64,000 nt of DNA from Streptomyces sp. NBC_01689 (lineage in GTDB: Bacteria > Actinomycetota > Actinomycetes > Streptomycetales > Streptomycetaceae), in contig NZ_CP109592.1 in NCBI RefSeq assembly GCF_036250675.1, positions 9,796,001 through 9,860,000 of the forward strand, written 5' to 3'. Within the stretch, counting starts at the first letter, position 1, and each line of letters opens with the position of its first letter. Both the position numbers and the translations under genes were made by a program. Below the pieces are notes generated by a model that saw nothing but the letters and a program-made list of their open reading frames with translations, made no database searches and was not told the DNA's origin. Positions 10,850 through 16,844 of the stretch are shown here, in pieces.

Positions 10850-12055
10850 TCAGTTCGCGGAGATCAGCTTCAGCTCGGGGTGGGCGGTGCCGCCCGCGAT
10901 CGCGGTGGACGAGATGTGGGAGACGACCCGCTCGTCGACCGGGTCGTTCGCCGGGTCGTCGTTGACCTTGAGGTGCTCGTACGTCGTGGAGCGCTGCGCG
11001 GGCACCCGCCCGGCACCGCGGATCAGCGTGAGCAGCTCCACCAGGTTGGAGCGGTGCTTGGCGCCGGCCGAGGAGACGACGTTCTCCTCCAGCATCACCG
11101 AGCCGAGGTCGTCCGCGCCGTAGTGCAGGGTCAGCTGGCCCGCCTCCTTGCCGGTGGTCAGCCAGGAGCCCTGGATGTGACGGACGTTGTCGAGGAACAG
11201 GCGCGCGACGGCGATCATCCGTACGTACTCGAAGAGTGTGGCCTGCGTGCGGCCCTTGAGGTGGTTGTTCTCGGGCTGGTAGGTGTACGGGATGAAGGCG
11301 CGGAAACCGCCGGTGCGGTCCTGTACGTCGCGGATCATGCGCATGTGCTCGATGCGCTCGGCGTTGGTCTCGCCGGTGCCCATGAGCATGGTGGAGGTGG
11401 ATTCGACGCCCAGGCCGTGCGCGATCTCCATGATCTCCAGCCAGCGTTCGCCGGACTCCTTGAGCGGGGCGATGGCCTTGCGCGGGCGGGCGGGCAGCAG
11501 TTCGGCGCCGGCGCCCGCGAAGGAGTCCAGGCCCGCCTGGTGGATGCGGGTGATGGCCTCCTCCACGCCGACCTTGGAGATCCGGGCCATGTGCTCGACC
11601 TCGGAGGCGCCCAGCGAGTGGATGACCAGCTGGGGGAAGTTCTCCTTGATCGCGGAGAAGTGCTTCTCGTAGTACTCGACGCCGTAGTCGGGGTGGTGGC
11701 CGCCCTGGAACATGATCTGGGTGCCGCCGAGTTCGACGGTCTCCGCGCAGCGGCGCAGGATGTCGTCGAGGTCGCGGGTCCAGCCCTTGGCGGTGTCCTT
11801 CGGCGCGGCGTAGAAGGCGCAGAACTTGCACGCCGTGACGCACACGTTGGTGTAGTTGATGTTCCGCTCGATGATGTACGTCGCGATGTGCTCGGTACCG
11901 GCGTACTTGCGGCGGCGTACGGCGTCGGCGGCGGCGCCCAGCGCGTGCAGCGGAGCGTCACGGTAGAGGTCGAGGGCCTCTTCCGGGGTGATGCGCCCGC
12001 CTTCGGCGGCACGGTCGAGGACGGACTGCAACGGGGACGGGGTAGGTCGGGGCAT
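10850..12055 (-). CDS. mqnC: Cyclic dehypoxanthinyl futalosine synthase, radical SAM (MqnC)
   Basis: A 401-aa radical SAM enzyme with the cluster motif CVTACKFC (Cx3Cx2C), followed by the MqnC signature GGTQIMFQGGHHPDYGVEYYE. MqnC cyclises dehypoxanthinyl futalosine, the third committed step of the futalosine route to menaquinone. The start ATG 12055 gives MPRPTPSPLQ, and the length is normal for the family. It is 52 bp downstream of mqnA and 38 bp upstream of the exporter ATPase. In streptomycete genomes the mqn genes are normally housekeeping loci; here the gene is embedded in a PKS operon. Confidence 0.95.
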   Translation of the reverse strand: MPRPTPSPLQSVLDRAAEGGRITPEEALDLYRDAPLHALGAAADAVRRRKYAGTEHIATYIIERNINYTNVCVTACKFCAFYAAPKDTAKGWTRDLDDILRRCAETVELGGTQIMFQGGHHPDYGVEYYEKHFSAIKENFPQLVIHSLGASEVEHMARISKVGVEEAITRIHQAGLDSFAGAGAELLPARPRKAIAPLKESGERWLEIMEIAHGLGVESTSTMLMGTGETNAERIEHMRMIRDVQDRTGGFRAFIPYTYQPENNHLKGRTQATLFEYVRMIAVARLFLDNVRHIQGSWLTTGKEAGQLTLHYGADDLGSVMLEENVVSSAGAKHRSNLVELLTLIRGAGRVPAQRSTTYEHLKVNDDPANDPVDERVVSHISSTAIAGGTAHPELKLISAN

Positions 12056-12107
12056 GGTGCCGGCCTTTCCGGGGCTGTGGATGGTCTTCCTGGTCATGGC
12101 GGGGGTG

Positions 12108-13007
12108 TCACGGAGAGTCGGTGTCCAGCAGGCGCACGGCCACGTCGGCGGGGAAGCCCTCCGCCGCACCGCCGACCCGGCGGGCGAACTCCCGGATACC
12201 GGCCAGCTGTTCGGCGCCGAGCCGGAAGTCGAGCGCCTCCGTGTAGTACCGCTCCAGCGTTCCGGCGTCGAACTCCTCCCACTGGGAGGCCTGTTCGCTC
12301 ACCTCGGTCACCTCGCGCAACGACAGGTCCCGGGAGGCCAGCAGATCGGCATGGACCTGGCGGACCAGAGCGGGTTCGCGGGCGAGGAAGTCGCGGCGCG
12401 CCGCGAACACGGCGAACACGAACGGGAGGCCGGTCCACTCCTTCCACATCCGGCCCAGGTCGTGGACCTGGAGGCCGAGTCCGGGAGCCTCGTGCAGCGC
12501 GGCACTGAGCGCCACGTCACCGATGATGACCGCCGCGCGGGCCTCGGACAGCATCGTGCGCAGGTCAGGCGGCCGCACCACGTACTCGGGACGGACACCT
12601 ACCTTCTCCTCCAGCAGCAGCCGGGCCAGCCGCACCGAGGTCCGGCTGGTCGAACCCAGCGCGACCCGCTCGCCGTCCAGCTGCTCCAGCGGCACCTGAC
12701 TGAGGATCAAGCACGACATGACGTCGCCGTCGCTGCCCACCGCGATGTCCGGCAGGGCCACCAGATCGTCGGCGTGCCGCAGGAACTCGACCAGGCTGAT
12801 GGGCCCGATGTCCAGATCACCGGCGGCCAGCGCCTGGTTGAGGCCGTCCGGGCTGTCCGTGCGCAGATCCAGGTCGAGCAGGCTGCCGGTACGGGCCAGC
12901 CCCCAGAACAGCGGCAGGCAGTTGAGGAACTCGATGTGCCCGACTCGGGGGCGGCGACGTTTGGTGCGCAGCGCCGACGACGGTTCTGCGACGAGTGGTT
13001 CGGTCAT
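12108..13007 (-). CDS. mqnA: Chorismate dehydratase (MqnA)
   Basis: A 299-aa protein with the MqnA/periplasmic-binding-like fold. Family landmarks are [17 protein letters not shown] near the N-terminus, [10 protein letters not shown], and [15 protein letters not shown]. MqnA dehydrates chorismate to 3-[(1-carboxyvinyl)oxy]benzoate, the entry reaction of the futalosine pathway. ATG 13007 is preceded by GGGAG at about 9 nt. An upstream GTG-started frame to 13118 has an Arg/Pro-rich tail that looks non-coding. It is co-transcribed with mqnC and mqnE. Confidence 0.94.
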
Positions 13008-15593: not shown

Positions 15594-15992
15594 TACCGGG
15601 GAACCTCCTCGGTCAGTGCCTGGCGGCACACGTAGTGAGTGCGAGTACGCGGATGGCACGTAACTCGTCTGCGGGCCCCGGCCGAGCCACCCGTCTTCGC
15701 GGACGGCTCGCACCGCCGTGGATCCGGCAGGGCGGAACTGGTACGGAGCCGCGCCACCCGACCCAGGCCGGCCGGACCGCCCTTCACGGACGGACCCGAA
15801 CCCTCCTGGAGACAACGGCACATGGACCGCTCCCCGACCGGAACACAGGGGATCCGGCCACGTCGGATGAGGCTCCCTCATCTTCGCGGAGGACAGTCTG
15901 GGGAAAACCCCACACCCACTCCGGCTTTCCTGGAGGGGGCGCGCGAGAGCGCCGCCACCGGATCACTCACGGCAGAGAATGAGGCGGGCCGC
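15594..15992. promoter_or_regulatory. Divergent control region mqnE / mqnD-PKS
   Basis: A 399-bp non-coding stretch between two divergent operons. It holds an inverted repeat with 7-bp arms (15866-15872 and 15876-15882, 3-nt spacer) and, 15 bp further on, the palindrome-like site CTGGGGAAAACCCCAC (15898-15913). The latter matches 14 of 16 positions of CTVGGGAWWTCCCBAG. No clear -10/-35 pair could be fixed by eye. Confidence 0.6.
15898..15913. promoter_or_regulatory. Candidate LuxR-family operator, copy 1
   Basis: CTGGGGAAAACCCCAC, 14/16 against the PimM-type consensus CTVGGGAWWTCCCBAG. It is placed where one protein could act on both divergent operons. Confidence 0.45.
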
Positions 15993-16844
15993 ATGACGTC
16001 ACGACTGACCCTGGCGCACTCCCCGTGCCCCAACGACACGTTCGTCTTCCACGCGCTGACCCACGGCCTGCTCCCCGGCGCCCCCGAGACCGACGTGCGC
16101 CTGGCCGACATCGACGTCACCAACGGGCTCGCCGAACGCGGCGAACTGGACGTCCTCAAGGTGTCCTACGGCGTCCTGCCGCACGTACTCGACACCTACG
16201 CCCTGCTGCCGTGCGGCGGCGCCGTCGGCCGCGGCTGCGGACCCCTCGTCCTGCGCCGGCAGGCCGGCCCGGCCGCCGGTCTCAGCGGCGCCCGCGTCGC
16301 CGTACCCAGCACCAGTTCCACGGCCTACCTCCTCTTCCGCCTCTGGGCGGCCCGCGCCGTCCCCGGCGGCGTCGGCGAGATCGTCGTCCTGCCCTTCCAC
16401 GAGATCATGCCCGCCGTCCGCGACGGCCTCGTCGACGCCGGCCTCGTCATCCACGAGGCCCGCTTCACCTACCGCCACTACGGCCTGCACAGCGTCGCCG
16501 ACCTGGGCGAGGAGTGGGAGAAGGAGACGACCCTGCCCGTCCCGCTCGGCGCCATCATCGCCCGCCGCACCCTCGGCGCCACCCGCCTCACCGCCCTCGC
16601 CGACGCCGTCCGCGCCTCCGTCCGCGCCGCCTGGGACACCCCCGCCGCCTCCCGCCCCTACGTCCTGGAGCACGCCCAGGAACTGGCCACGGACGTCGTC
16701 GACCAGCACATCGAGCTCTACGTCAACTCCTTCACCGCGGAACTCGGCGACGAAGGCCACGCCGCCGTACGCGAACTCCTCGGCCGCAGCGCCGACCTCG
16801 GCCTGCTGCCCGCCGTACCCGACGGCGCCCTCGACTTCCCCTAG
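15993..16844 (+). CDS. mqnD: 1,4-dihydroxy-6-naphthoate synthase (MqnD)
   Basis: A 283-aa protein with the MqnD start signature LAHSPCPNDTFVFHAL and the family segments DIDVTNGLAERGELDVLKVSYG and VVDQHIELYVNSFT. MqnD cleaves cyclic dehypoxanthinyl futalosine to 1,4-dihydroxy-6-naphthoate, a free aromatic carboxylic acid. ATG 15993 has GAGG about 9 nt upstream. It stands alone as the first gene before the first bimodular PKS (191 bp gap). This places production of the naphthoate directly in the PKS operon. Confidence 0.95.
   Translation: MTSRLTLAHSPCPNDTFVFHALTHGLLPGAPETDVRLADIDVTNGLAERGELDVLKVSYGVLPHVLDTYALLPCGGAVGRGCGPLVLRRQAGPAAGLSGARVAVPSTSSTAYLLFRLWAARAVPGGVGEIVVLPFHEIMPAVRDGLVDAGLVIHEARFTYRHYGLHSVADLGEEWEKETTLPVPLGAIIARRTLGATRLTALADAVRASVRAAWDTPAASRPYVLEHAQELATDVVDQHIELYVNSFTAELGDEGHAAVRELLGRSADLGLLPAVPDGALDFP

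Follow-up and report, generated by a model that had tools for sequence, protein, structure and literature searches.

The window examined here, 64,000 nucleotides of contig NZ_CP109592.1 of Streptomyces sp. NBC_01689 (positions 9,796,001 to 9,860,000; assembly GCF_036250675.1), carries four genes of the futalosine pathway to menaquinone, mqnE, mqnA, mqnC and mqnD, set among the genes of a type I modular polyketide synthase (PKS). Plain coordinates are window positions; those preceded by C1 alone are positions on the contig of the window. Genomes and fetched loci of relatives are designated, where needed, by working numbers (G and L, respectively).

The mqn gene run

Genes on the minus strand run from 15593 down to 3675 in the order mqnE, ferredoxin, type II thioesterase, mqnA, mqnC, ABC ATPase, ABC permease, ligase-DH-KR-ACP protein, and a ketosynthase III-like (KSIII) gene. 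The products of mqnE (14430–15593; aminofutalosine synthase; TIGR03700, 530.8 bits, cut-off 434.55), mqnC (10850–12031; cyclic dehypoxanthinyl futalosine synthase; TIGR03699, 450.7 bits, cut-off 428.1) and the exporter ATPase gene (9819–10811; DrrA; TIGR01188, 352.7 bits, cut-off 312.45) exceed curated NCBIfam cut-offs. MqnE and MqnC are radical S-adenosylmethionine (SAM) enzymes, and CxxxCxxC, the pattern of such enzymes, is visible in both translations. SAM is used by MqnE as co-substrate, by MqnC as oxidant. MqnA (12108–13007; chorismate dehydratase) and MqnD (15993–16844, plus strand; 1,4-dihydroxy-6-naphthoate synthase) both belong to PF02621 (243 bits, cut-off 26, and 244.5 bits, respectively), and are separated by their solved relatives, the chorismate dehydratase SCO4506 for the former (2nxo, 405.9 bits), TTHA1568 for the latter (2czl/3a3u, 221.5 bits). 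The NCBIfam scan returned one unrelated match below threshold and no naming model for MqnA, and no match for MqnD.

The remaining members of the run encode a ferredoxin (14020–14328; Fer4_15, 67.8 bits), a type II thioesterase (13169–13933; PF00975, 202.2 bits), a DrrB-like ABC-2 exporter permease (8962–9819; PF01061, 94.4 bits), and the ligase protein and KSIII described below. mqnD is divergent, and starts 400 bp off on the plus strand, ahead of two bimodular PKS genes; the interval from mqnE (15594–15992, gene starts set by codon usage) is the presumed promoter region. Profile scores and solved relatives place all four mqn genes where the original prediction had them. Its description of the surroundings is borne out as well: mqnE, mqnA and mqnC share one minus-strand run with the type II thioesterase, the exporter and the CoA-ligase/ACP protein, and mqnD heads the divergent PKS genes. 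Genes beyond that prediction are the ferredoxin at 14020–14328, the KSIII gene at 3675–4706, a SAM synthetase/nucleosidase pair, and mqnB outside the window.

mqnB, coding for futalosine hydrolase (TIGR03664, 213.9 bits, cut-off 124.7), is flanked by macrolide PKS genes 42 kb ahead of the window (C1:9752863-9753552). To judge from the genes, the cluster is therewith endowed with a complete mqnABCDE complement.

A dedicated second set

The genome measures 9.96 Mb, in two contigs. The search for further mqnA, mqnC, mqnD and mqnE genes, proposed as a check along with the original prediction, located a housekeeping set elsewhere on C1 (mqnA 4521050, mqnC 4517015, mqnE 4527737, mqnD 5492362, mqnB 5493239). 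Since this set is separate, the mqn genes of the window are a dedicated second set. PF02621 matches in the genome are those at 4521050 and 5492362, the window pair, and a mirror copy of the window pair. Cluster and housekeeping proteins are 68.6% (A), 64.6% (B), 93.1% (C), 68.8% (D) and 91.7% (E) identical.

A tree was made from 37 MqnA rows, hand-picked from profile-search loci with some known MqnA matches left out. Ten cluster-type rows, the window gene among them, form one clade (support 96/95); two of the ten, G169 and Streptomyces sp. TP-A0356, are identical and apparently represent one genome. The housekeeping MqnA of the same strain sits in a second clade of 21 rows (99/98), and five rows (G358, G155, G128, G145, G368) make a third clade (100/100).

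The macrolide PKS and its starter

The chain-starting module, located upstream, features a KSQ domain (VDSAQSSS) and an AT of the methylmalonyl type according to active-site motifs; methylmalonyl-type motifs mark the AT domains of the loading module and of modules 1–4. In the PKS genes found, 18 extension KS domains were counted besides the KSQ, distributed as 2, 3 (in a gene split in the right chromosomal arm, see below), 5, 2 and 2, and then 2 + 2 in the genes beside mqnD. The PKS gene entering the left end of the window (1–3569, plus strand; gene start at window -7422) terminates in a thioesterase (PF00975, 88.8 bits). By domain matches, the genes beside mqnD, both on the plus strand, encode a docking-type N-terminus followed by KS-AT-DH-KR-ACP and KS-AT-KR-ACP (17036–26995), and a docking domain followed by two KS-AT-KR-ACP modules (27057–36386). 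Neither protein has a loading domain, and the two would provide modules 6–9 of the macrolide line.

The original prediction had the product of the mqn genes, 1,4-dihydroxy-6-naphthoate (DH6N), prime a type I PKS. DH6N does not prime the macrolide PKS, because the latter has a KSQ loading module of its own. That the ligase protein loads DH6N onto the PKS encoded at 17036–36386 as a true chain starter is quite improbable too: mqnD and the two PKS genes adjoin on one strand and the ligase gene is nearby, but both PKS proteins have docking-type N-termini, the cluster holds the separate KSQ module, and the ligase protein ends directly after its ACP, without a docking tail (as read by eye). Moreover, placing both proteins as modules 6–9 would give a line of 18 modules, versus 20 in the PKS for PM100117, described in the next section.

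Published clusters

The statements on published systems reflect the available portions of the papers cited. The gon cluster for PM100117 and PM100118 in Streptomyces caniferus GUA-06-05-006A includes four mqn genes, which were assigned in 2016 to the naphthoquinone of these compounds (PMC4763440). Traces of product remain upon deletion of gonM4 (mqnD), no product is detected upon loss of gonSL, gonS1, gonS2, gonMT or gonP8, and all six mutants accumulate compounds devoid of naphthoquinone (PMC4763440). The acid was proposed to be a starter only for GonP8, a one-module side PKS organized as ligase-ACP-KS-AT-KR-DH-ACP; GonSL has lost the DH and KR motifs and kept the adenylation and ACP motifs (PMC4763440). 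PM100117 is assembled by 20 modules and has a 36-membered ring (PMC4763440, PMC6746918).

Both the gon and the window cluster feature mqnA, mqnC, ferredoxin, mqnE, mqnD, thioesterase, ABC pair, ligase-DH-KR-ACP protein and KSIII genes, along with deoxysugar genes, glycosyltransferases and a giant modular PKS primed by KSQ, and in both organisms housekeeping mqn genes are separate. The methylmalonyl ATs of the loading module and modules 1–4 are also shared. In contrast to the 20 modules of the 36-membered PM100117 type, 18 extension modules were found here, and on the same relation would give a ring of 32. MqnB comes from outside the gon cluster and is encoded inside the cluster here; the SAM synthetase/nucleosidase pair found here is missing from the gon gene table; GonP8 and GonMT are present in gon, and nothing was found for them here.

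Cluster 6 of Streptomyces sp. NEAU-S7GS2 similarly has mqnA, mqnC and mqnD within a type I PKS cluster, assigned to DH6N and naphthoquinone (PMC6746918, 2019), but differs in that its futalosine hydrolase lies far from the cluster and its PKS modules outnumber those of PM100117. The original prediction, which knew of no described polyketide primed from this acid, is therefore superseded by the PM100117/118 cluster, with the evidence of the gonM4 deletion, and by NEAU-S7GS2, which repeats the reading. No paper linking "6-naphthoic acid" with Streptomyces was found in the literature searched.

Two macrolides known by structure are also relevant. The 32-membered macrolactone langkolide carries an acetyl group and a disaccharide to which a 1,4-naphthoquinone is attached (PMC10669366). 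On gene content alone it fits the 18 modules, the two glycosyltransferases and the two PF02458 acyltransferases of the window, which suggest a 32-membered, langkolide-like product. The match is inferred, as langkolide offers no sequence for comparison, the available portions of the literature mentioning no langkolide gene cluster, and other 32-membered macrolides exist. In cyphomycin, which is 36-membered (PMC10669366), a naphthoquinone acyl, methylated and with a carbon side chain on the aromatic ring, is ester-linked to the terminal sugar (PMC6355912). Its methyl-branched three-carbon acyl fits an extension of the GonP8 type, not found in the window genome. The available part of the cyphomycin paper names no futalosine genes (PMC6355912).

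Ligase protein, KSIII and fate of the acid

The GonSL-like loading protein (4871–8932, minus strand; 1353 residues) consists of a CoA-ligase (CAL) domain, degenerate DH and KR domains, and an ACP (AMP-binding, 299.8 bits; PKS_DH_N; SpnB_Rossmann; PP-binding). Adenylation motifs and the ACP serine are kept, DH and KR motifs are lost. No NCBIfam cut-off was reached among the matches listed, which comprise 25 ligase models. In a tree of ligase domains, the window row belongs to a clade of 12 of the 50 rows (100/99, against 38 others), which includes the mqn-linked ligase proteins and the GonP8-like ones. mqn genes occur in the fetched stretch of 6 of the 12 (the window, L033, L034, L035, L036, L136), and L039 is on the same contig as L036. 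The fetched parts of L037, L038, L041 and L046 contain PKS and deoxysugar genes like those of the window, and no mqn gene; that of L040 contains neither. No mqn gene was found in the fetched stretches of the remaining ligase loci (L042–L045, L047–L082).

The KSIII gene at 3675–4706 (minus strand; PF08541/PF08545) encodes an acyltransferase-like protein (KSIIIa) of the ChlB3/CerJ type. ChlB3 (7eqi, 216.6 bits) is the best solved relative, followed by 7vyu (197.3 bits), 9z38 (197 bits) and CerJ (3s3l, 170.5 bits), and the cysteine is kept. ChlB3 and CerJ enzymes transfer acyl groups; the acyl donor and acceptor put forward below for the window protein are predicted.

On the route to menaquinone the acid would be decarboxylated by UbiD. 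UbiD, the only late enzyme searched for, is absent from the cluster, as the genome search found it only at C1:4531730 and 9298617; for this reason DH6N would be kept as an acid.

SAM synthetase, nucleosidase and other genes of the window

A SAM synthetase gene (metK; 53474–54685; TIGR01034, 551.2 bits) and a gene for a nucleosidase resembling methylthioadenosine/S-adenosylhomocysteine nucleosidases (54725–55423; NF004168, 226.9 bits, cut-off 129), both on the minus strand, mark the other edge of the cluster, after the second PF02458 gene. The nucleosidase scores 50.5 bits with the futalosine hydrolase model TIGR03664, below the cut-off of 124.7. The trio of PF02458 gene, metK and nucleosidase gene is kept in G226, G110 and G013, that is in all three genomes fetched over that stretch; the pair resides also on contig C5 of G302, and is missing from the stretches fetched for L033–L037 and L041. 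As MqnE and MqnC use SAM, the two proteins probably feed and clear these radical-SAM enzymes.

The minus-strand genes at 55448–60155 encode an AMP ligase, a small ACP-like protein, an ectoine-synthase-like cupin, an acyl-CoA dehydrogenase, a transglutaminase-like protein and an unknown protein. Assignment of the metK/nucleosidase pair to this operon was rejected, since the pair stands without it in G226, G110 and G013. At the search thresholds used, the genes had no match in L170, L172 and L173; not being found in the relatives fetched, they are probably a separate small pathway.

Between the PKS and metK lie, on the minus strand, genes for a FabH-type KSIII (36505–37554), a PF02458 acyltransferase (37994–39379; 174.1 bits) and two cytochromes P450 (39575–40795 and 40859–42106; PF00067). 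These are followed on the plus strand by the second ferredoxin gene of the window (42369–42623; Fer4_13, 47.9 bits) and by genes for an EryCIII-like glycosyltransferase (42727–43980; 182 and 126.8 bits), the dTDP-glucose 4,6-dehydratase RmlB (44165–45175; TIGR01181, 412.6 bits) and a SARP-type regulator (45169–45957; BTAD, PF03704, 140 bits). Further deoxysugar genes encode an SDR-type sugar enzyme (46495–47478, minus), RmlC (47692–48273, plus), the second glycosyltransferase (48360–49607, plus) and an RfbH-like dehydratase (49591–50892, minus). The second PF02458 acyltransferase gene (51284–52570, plus; 187 bits) comes next.

Occurrence in other genomes

The order mqnE, ferredoxin, thioesterase, mqnA, mqnC, ABC pair, ligase gene is shared, divergent mqnD included, by Streptomyces sp. 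TP-A0356 (L036), where the KSIII gene is reversed relative to the window, and by G226 (L135/L136). Streptantibioticus silvisoli (L035) shows the same order as well, except that two additional genes follow the ferredoxin and that the fetched part is devoid of mqnD. In all three a ferredoxin gene follows mqnE. Recurrence of the gene order in relatives indicates that the arrangement is not due to chance.

Futalosine hydrolases were counted in 14 genome entries, apparently 12 distinct genomes (row for row, G169 is identical to G392 and G239 to G398). Two proteins over cut-off are present in seven of the 12, a single one in five (G239, G253, G393, G394, G395). The extra gene is located ~65–66 kb from the cluster mqnA in the single-contig genomes G226, G110 and G013. 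At the search threshold used, G226, G110, G013 and G169/TP-A0356 each show two ligase domains, the second within a frame 4183–4337 residues long. G302 has three ligase domains, G253 two, and G393–G395 one each, in GonP8-sized frames. The drafts of S. cavernae, Streptantibioticus silvisoli and S. sporangiiformans (G239) have a single ligase domain, outside a GonP8-sized frame.

PF02621 matches are present in all 392 Streptomyces genomes, NBC_01689 included; by hand tally at least four occur in 15 genomes, three in 20. When these 35 genomes were searched with the cluster MqnA, the window type (80–100% identity) was found in 8, the third MqnA clade in 5, for a cluster-type total of 13 of 35, own genome included in the first and last figures. 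The counts are lower bounds, 35 of the 392 genomes having been examined closely.

On stretches of up to 20 kb, members of the third clade looked like clusters without a modular PKS, a view refuted by longer stretches from three of the five. GonP8-like ligase-ACP-KS-AT modules occur in G358 and G128, and PKS modules lie 22–46 kb from the mqn genes, on the same contig, in G128 and G368. A 160-kb stretch of contig C1 of G358 (6194001–6354000; L137, L158–L164) holds mqnD together with a long modular PKS and a ligase module resembling GonP8. This giant PKS cluster shows the order mqnE, ferredoxin, mqnA, mqnC, a distant mqnD, and three glycosyltransferase genes beside the mqn genes; it represents a second lineage, which may stand closer to PM100117 than the cluster of the window does. 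MqnA-like genes that are extra or divergent, with 52–66% identity to the window MqnA, were noticed in G384 (C1:106854, L146), G069 (C1:6693928, L148), G164 (C23:519, L149) and G388 (C1:5109395, L150), with no PKS domain in the fetched stretches.

The terminal inverted repeat

C1 measures 9,909,705 bases, and its left end is, but for a few differences, the inverted counterpart of its right end, as compared over 1–10000, 40001–200000 and 220001–233699 of the left end. The terminal inverted repeat (1–233699 versus 9676006–9909705) includes the window, and the whole macrolide cluster is doubled. Two of the differences between the copies are length differences inside the window, outside the features described above. 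As matches of equal score to a GonP8-like query remain paired up to ~302 kb from either end, the repeat probably extends beyond 233699 bases. A frame break, confined to the right arm, interrupts a macrolide PKS gene at C1 ~9742500, ~53.5 kb ahead of the window; the copy in the left arm reads through 5053 residues, and the break may be an assembly error.

Interpretation

The mqn genes are most probably the naphthoquinone-supply section of a cluster for a glycosylated macrolide of the PM100117, langkolide and cyphomycin kind, meant to place a DH6N acyl on a deoxysugar of an 18-module, methylmalonate-primed macrolide. MqnA would dehydrate chorismate, and MqnE, with SAM as co-substrate, MqnB, MqnC and MqnD would convert the product to DH6N. 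Retained as an acid, DH6N would be activated by the ligase/ACP protein (4871–8932), and its acyl group transferred, probably by the ChlB3/CerJ-like KSIII (3675–4706) or by a PF02458 acyltransferase. The acceptor would be a deoxysugar of the macrolide made by the KSQ-primed PKS, with SAM synthetase and nucleosidase probably supplying MqnE and MqnC and clearing up after them. Of the original prediction, the dedicated set and the ligase in the same run are retained, the lack of a described polyketide and the priming role abandoned.

Some observations weigh against this explanation. Product, expression and enzyme activities are predicted from genes alone. Which acid the ligase takes is not revealed by its solved relatives; among these are malonyl-, feruloyl-, coumaroyl-, succinylbenzoyl- and benzoyl-CoA ligases. 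No methyltransferase family was detected among the window genes scanned, and the naphthoquinones of PM100117 and cyphomycin are methylated; a counterpart of GonMT was looked for through these family scans. Finally, GonP8, needed for the naphthoquinone in the PM100117 producer, has no counterpart in the genome among the matches listed. The whole genome was searched with a GonP8-like S. sioyaensis protein (L037, 2398 aa), so named on domains and length. For its ligase part, both terminal copies of the window ligase protein match at 68%, and the other ligase-type matches listed at 42% at most; its KS-AT parts match macrolide and other PKS genes.

Two candidates for the role of GonP8 were discarded. 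A 3282-residue frame near C1:0.92–0.93 Mb, with adenylation-like (28–36%) and KS (40%) matches, looks like a hybrid of nonribosomal peptide synthetase and PKS. The FabH-type KSIII (36505–37554) might replace the GonP8 ketosynthase; it was not counted in the pathway because other single-ligase genomes have no close relative, the best matches being 57% in silvisoli and 40% in both S. cavernae and S. sporangiiformans. Relatives of 71–77% are located elsewhere in G013 and G302, and none was seen beside the PKS genes of G226.

With no counterpart of GonP8 detected, the naphthoate is here either attached without extension or handled by another module in place of GonP8. A fuller version of the former is put forward tentatively, as possible but rather doubtful: DH6N or its quinone would pass directly from the ligase ACP to the sugar as a short aroyl ester, in place of the methyl-branched three-carbon acyl known from cyphomycin, and the cluster would rely on an mqnB and a SAM synthetase gene of its own and on a nucleosidase that clears 5'-deoxyadenosine or hydrolyses aminofutalosine. 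The single ligase domains of S. cavernae, Streptantibioticus silvisoli and S. sporangiiformans, noted above, are comparable cases.

Naphthoquinone supply accounts for the locus better than the two further explanations offered with the original prediction, both disfavoured. A resistant duplicate menaquinone pathway guarding the producer against its own product would agree with the complete second mqnABCDE set, but is very unlikely, as the late-step UbiD is not in the cluster, the ligase protein and the acyltransferase-like KSIII belong to the same gene run, published relatives of the mqn set serve naphthoquinone synthesis in the sources available, and identities above 90% of MqnC and MqnE to the housekeeping proteins do not suggest altered, inhibitor-proof enzymes. 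That the genes are displaced or accidentally duplicated housekeeping genes without a dedicated role is scarcely credible, even though the terminal inverted repeat doubles the genes of this region, since a housekeeping set is present elsewhere and the cluster MqnA is no recent copy, but groups with cluster genes of conserved order from other species.

Recruitment of mqn genes for naphthoquinone in such clusters is already known (PMC4763440, PMC6746918, as far as the available portions go). Unlike the PM100117 producer, NBC_01689 has the complete mqnABCDE set and SAM helper genes in the cluster, and no GonP8-type ligase-PKS was found in its genome. The missing GonP8 leads to a concrete structural prediction for an uncharacterised macrolide, and clusters holding the whole DH6N route with SAM-handling helpers would be useful for transfer of the pathway to another host or for making analogues. 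DH6N is very probably wanted as an ornament, not as a starter of the macrolide, and macrolide clusters appear to recruit the vitamin K pathway recurrently.

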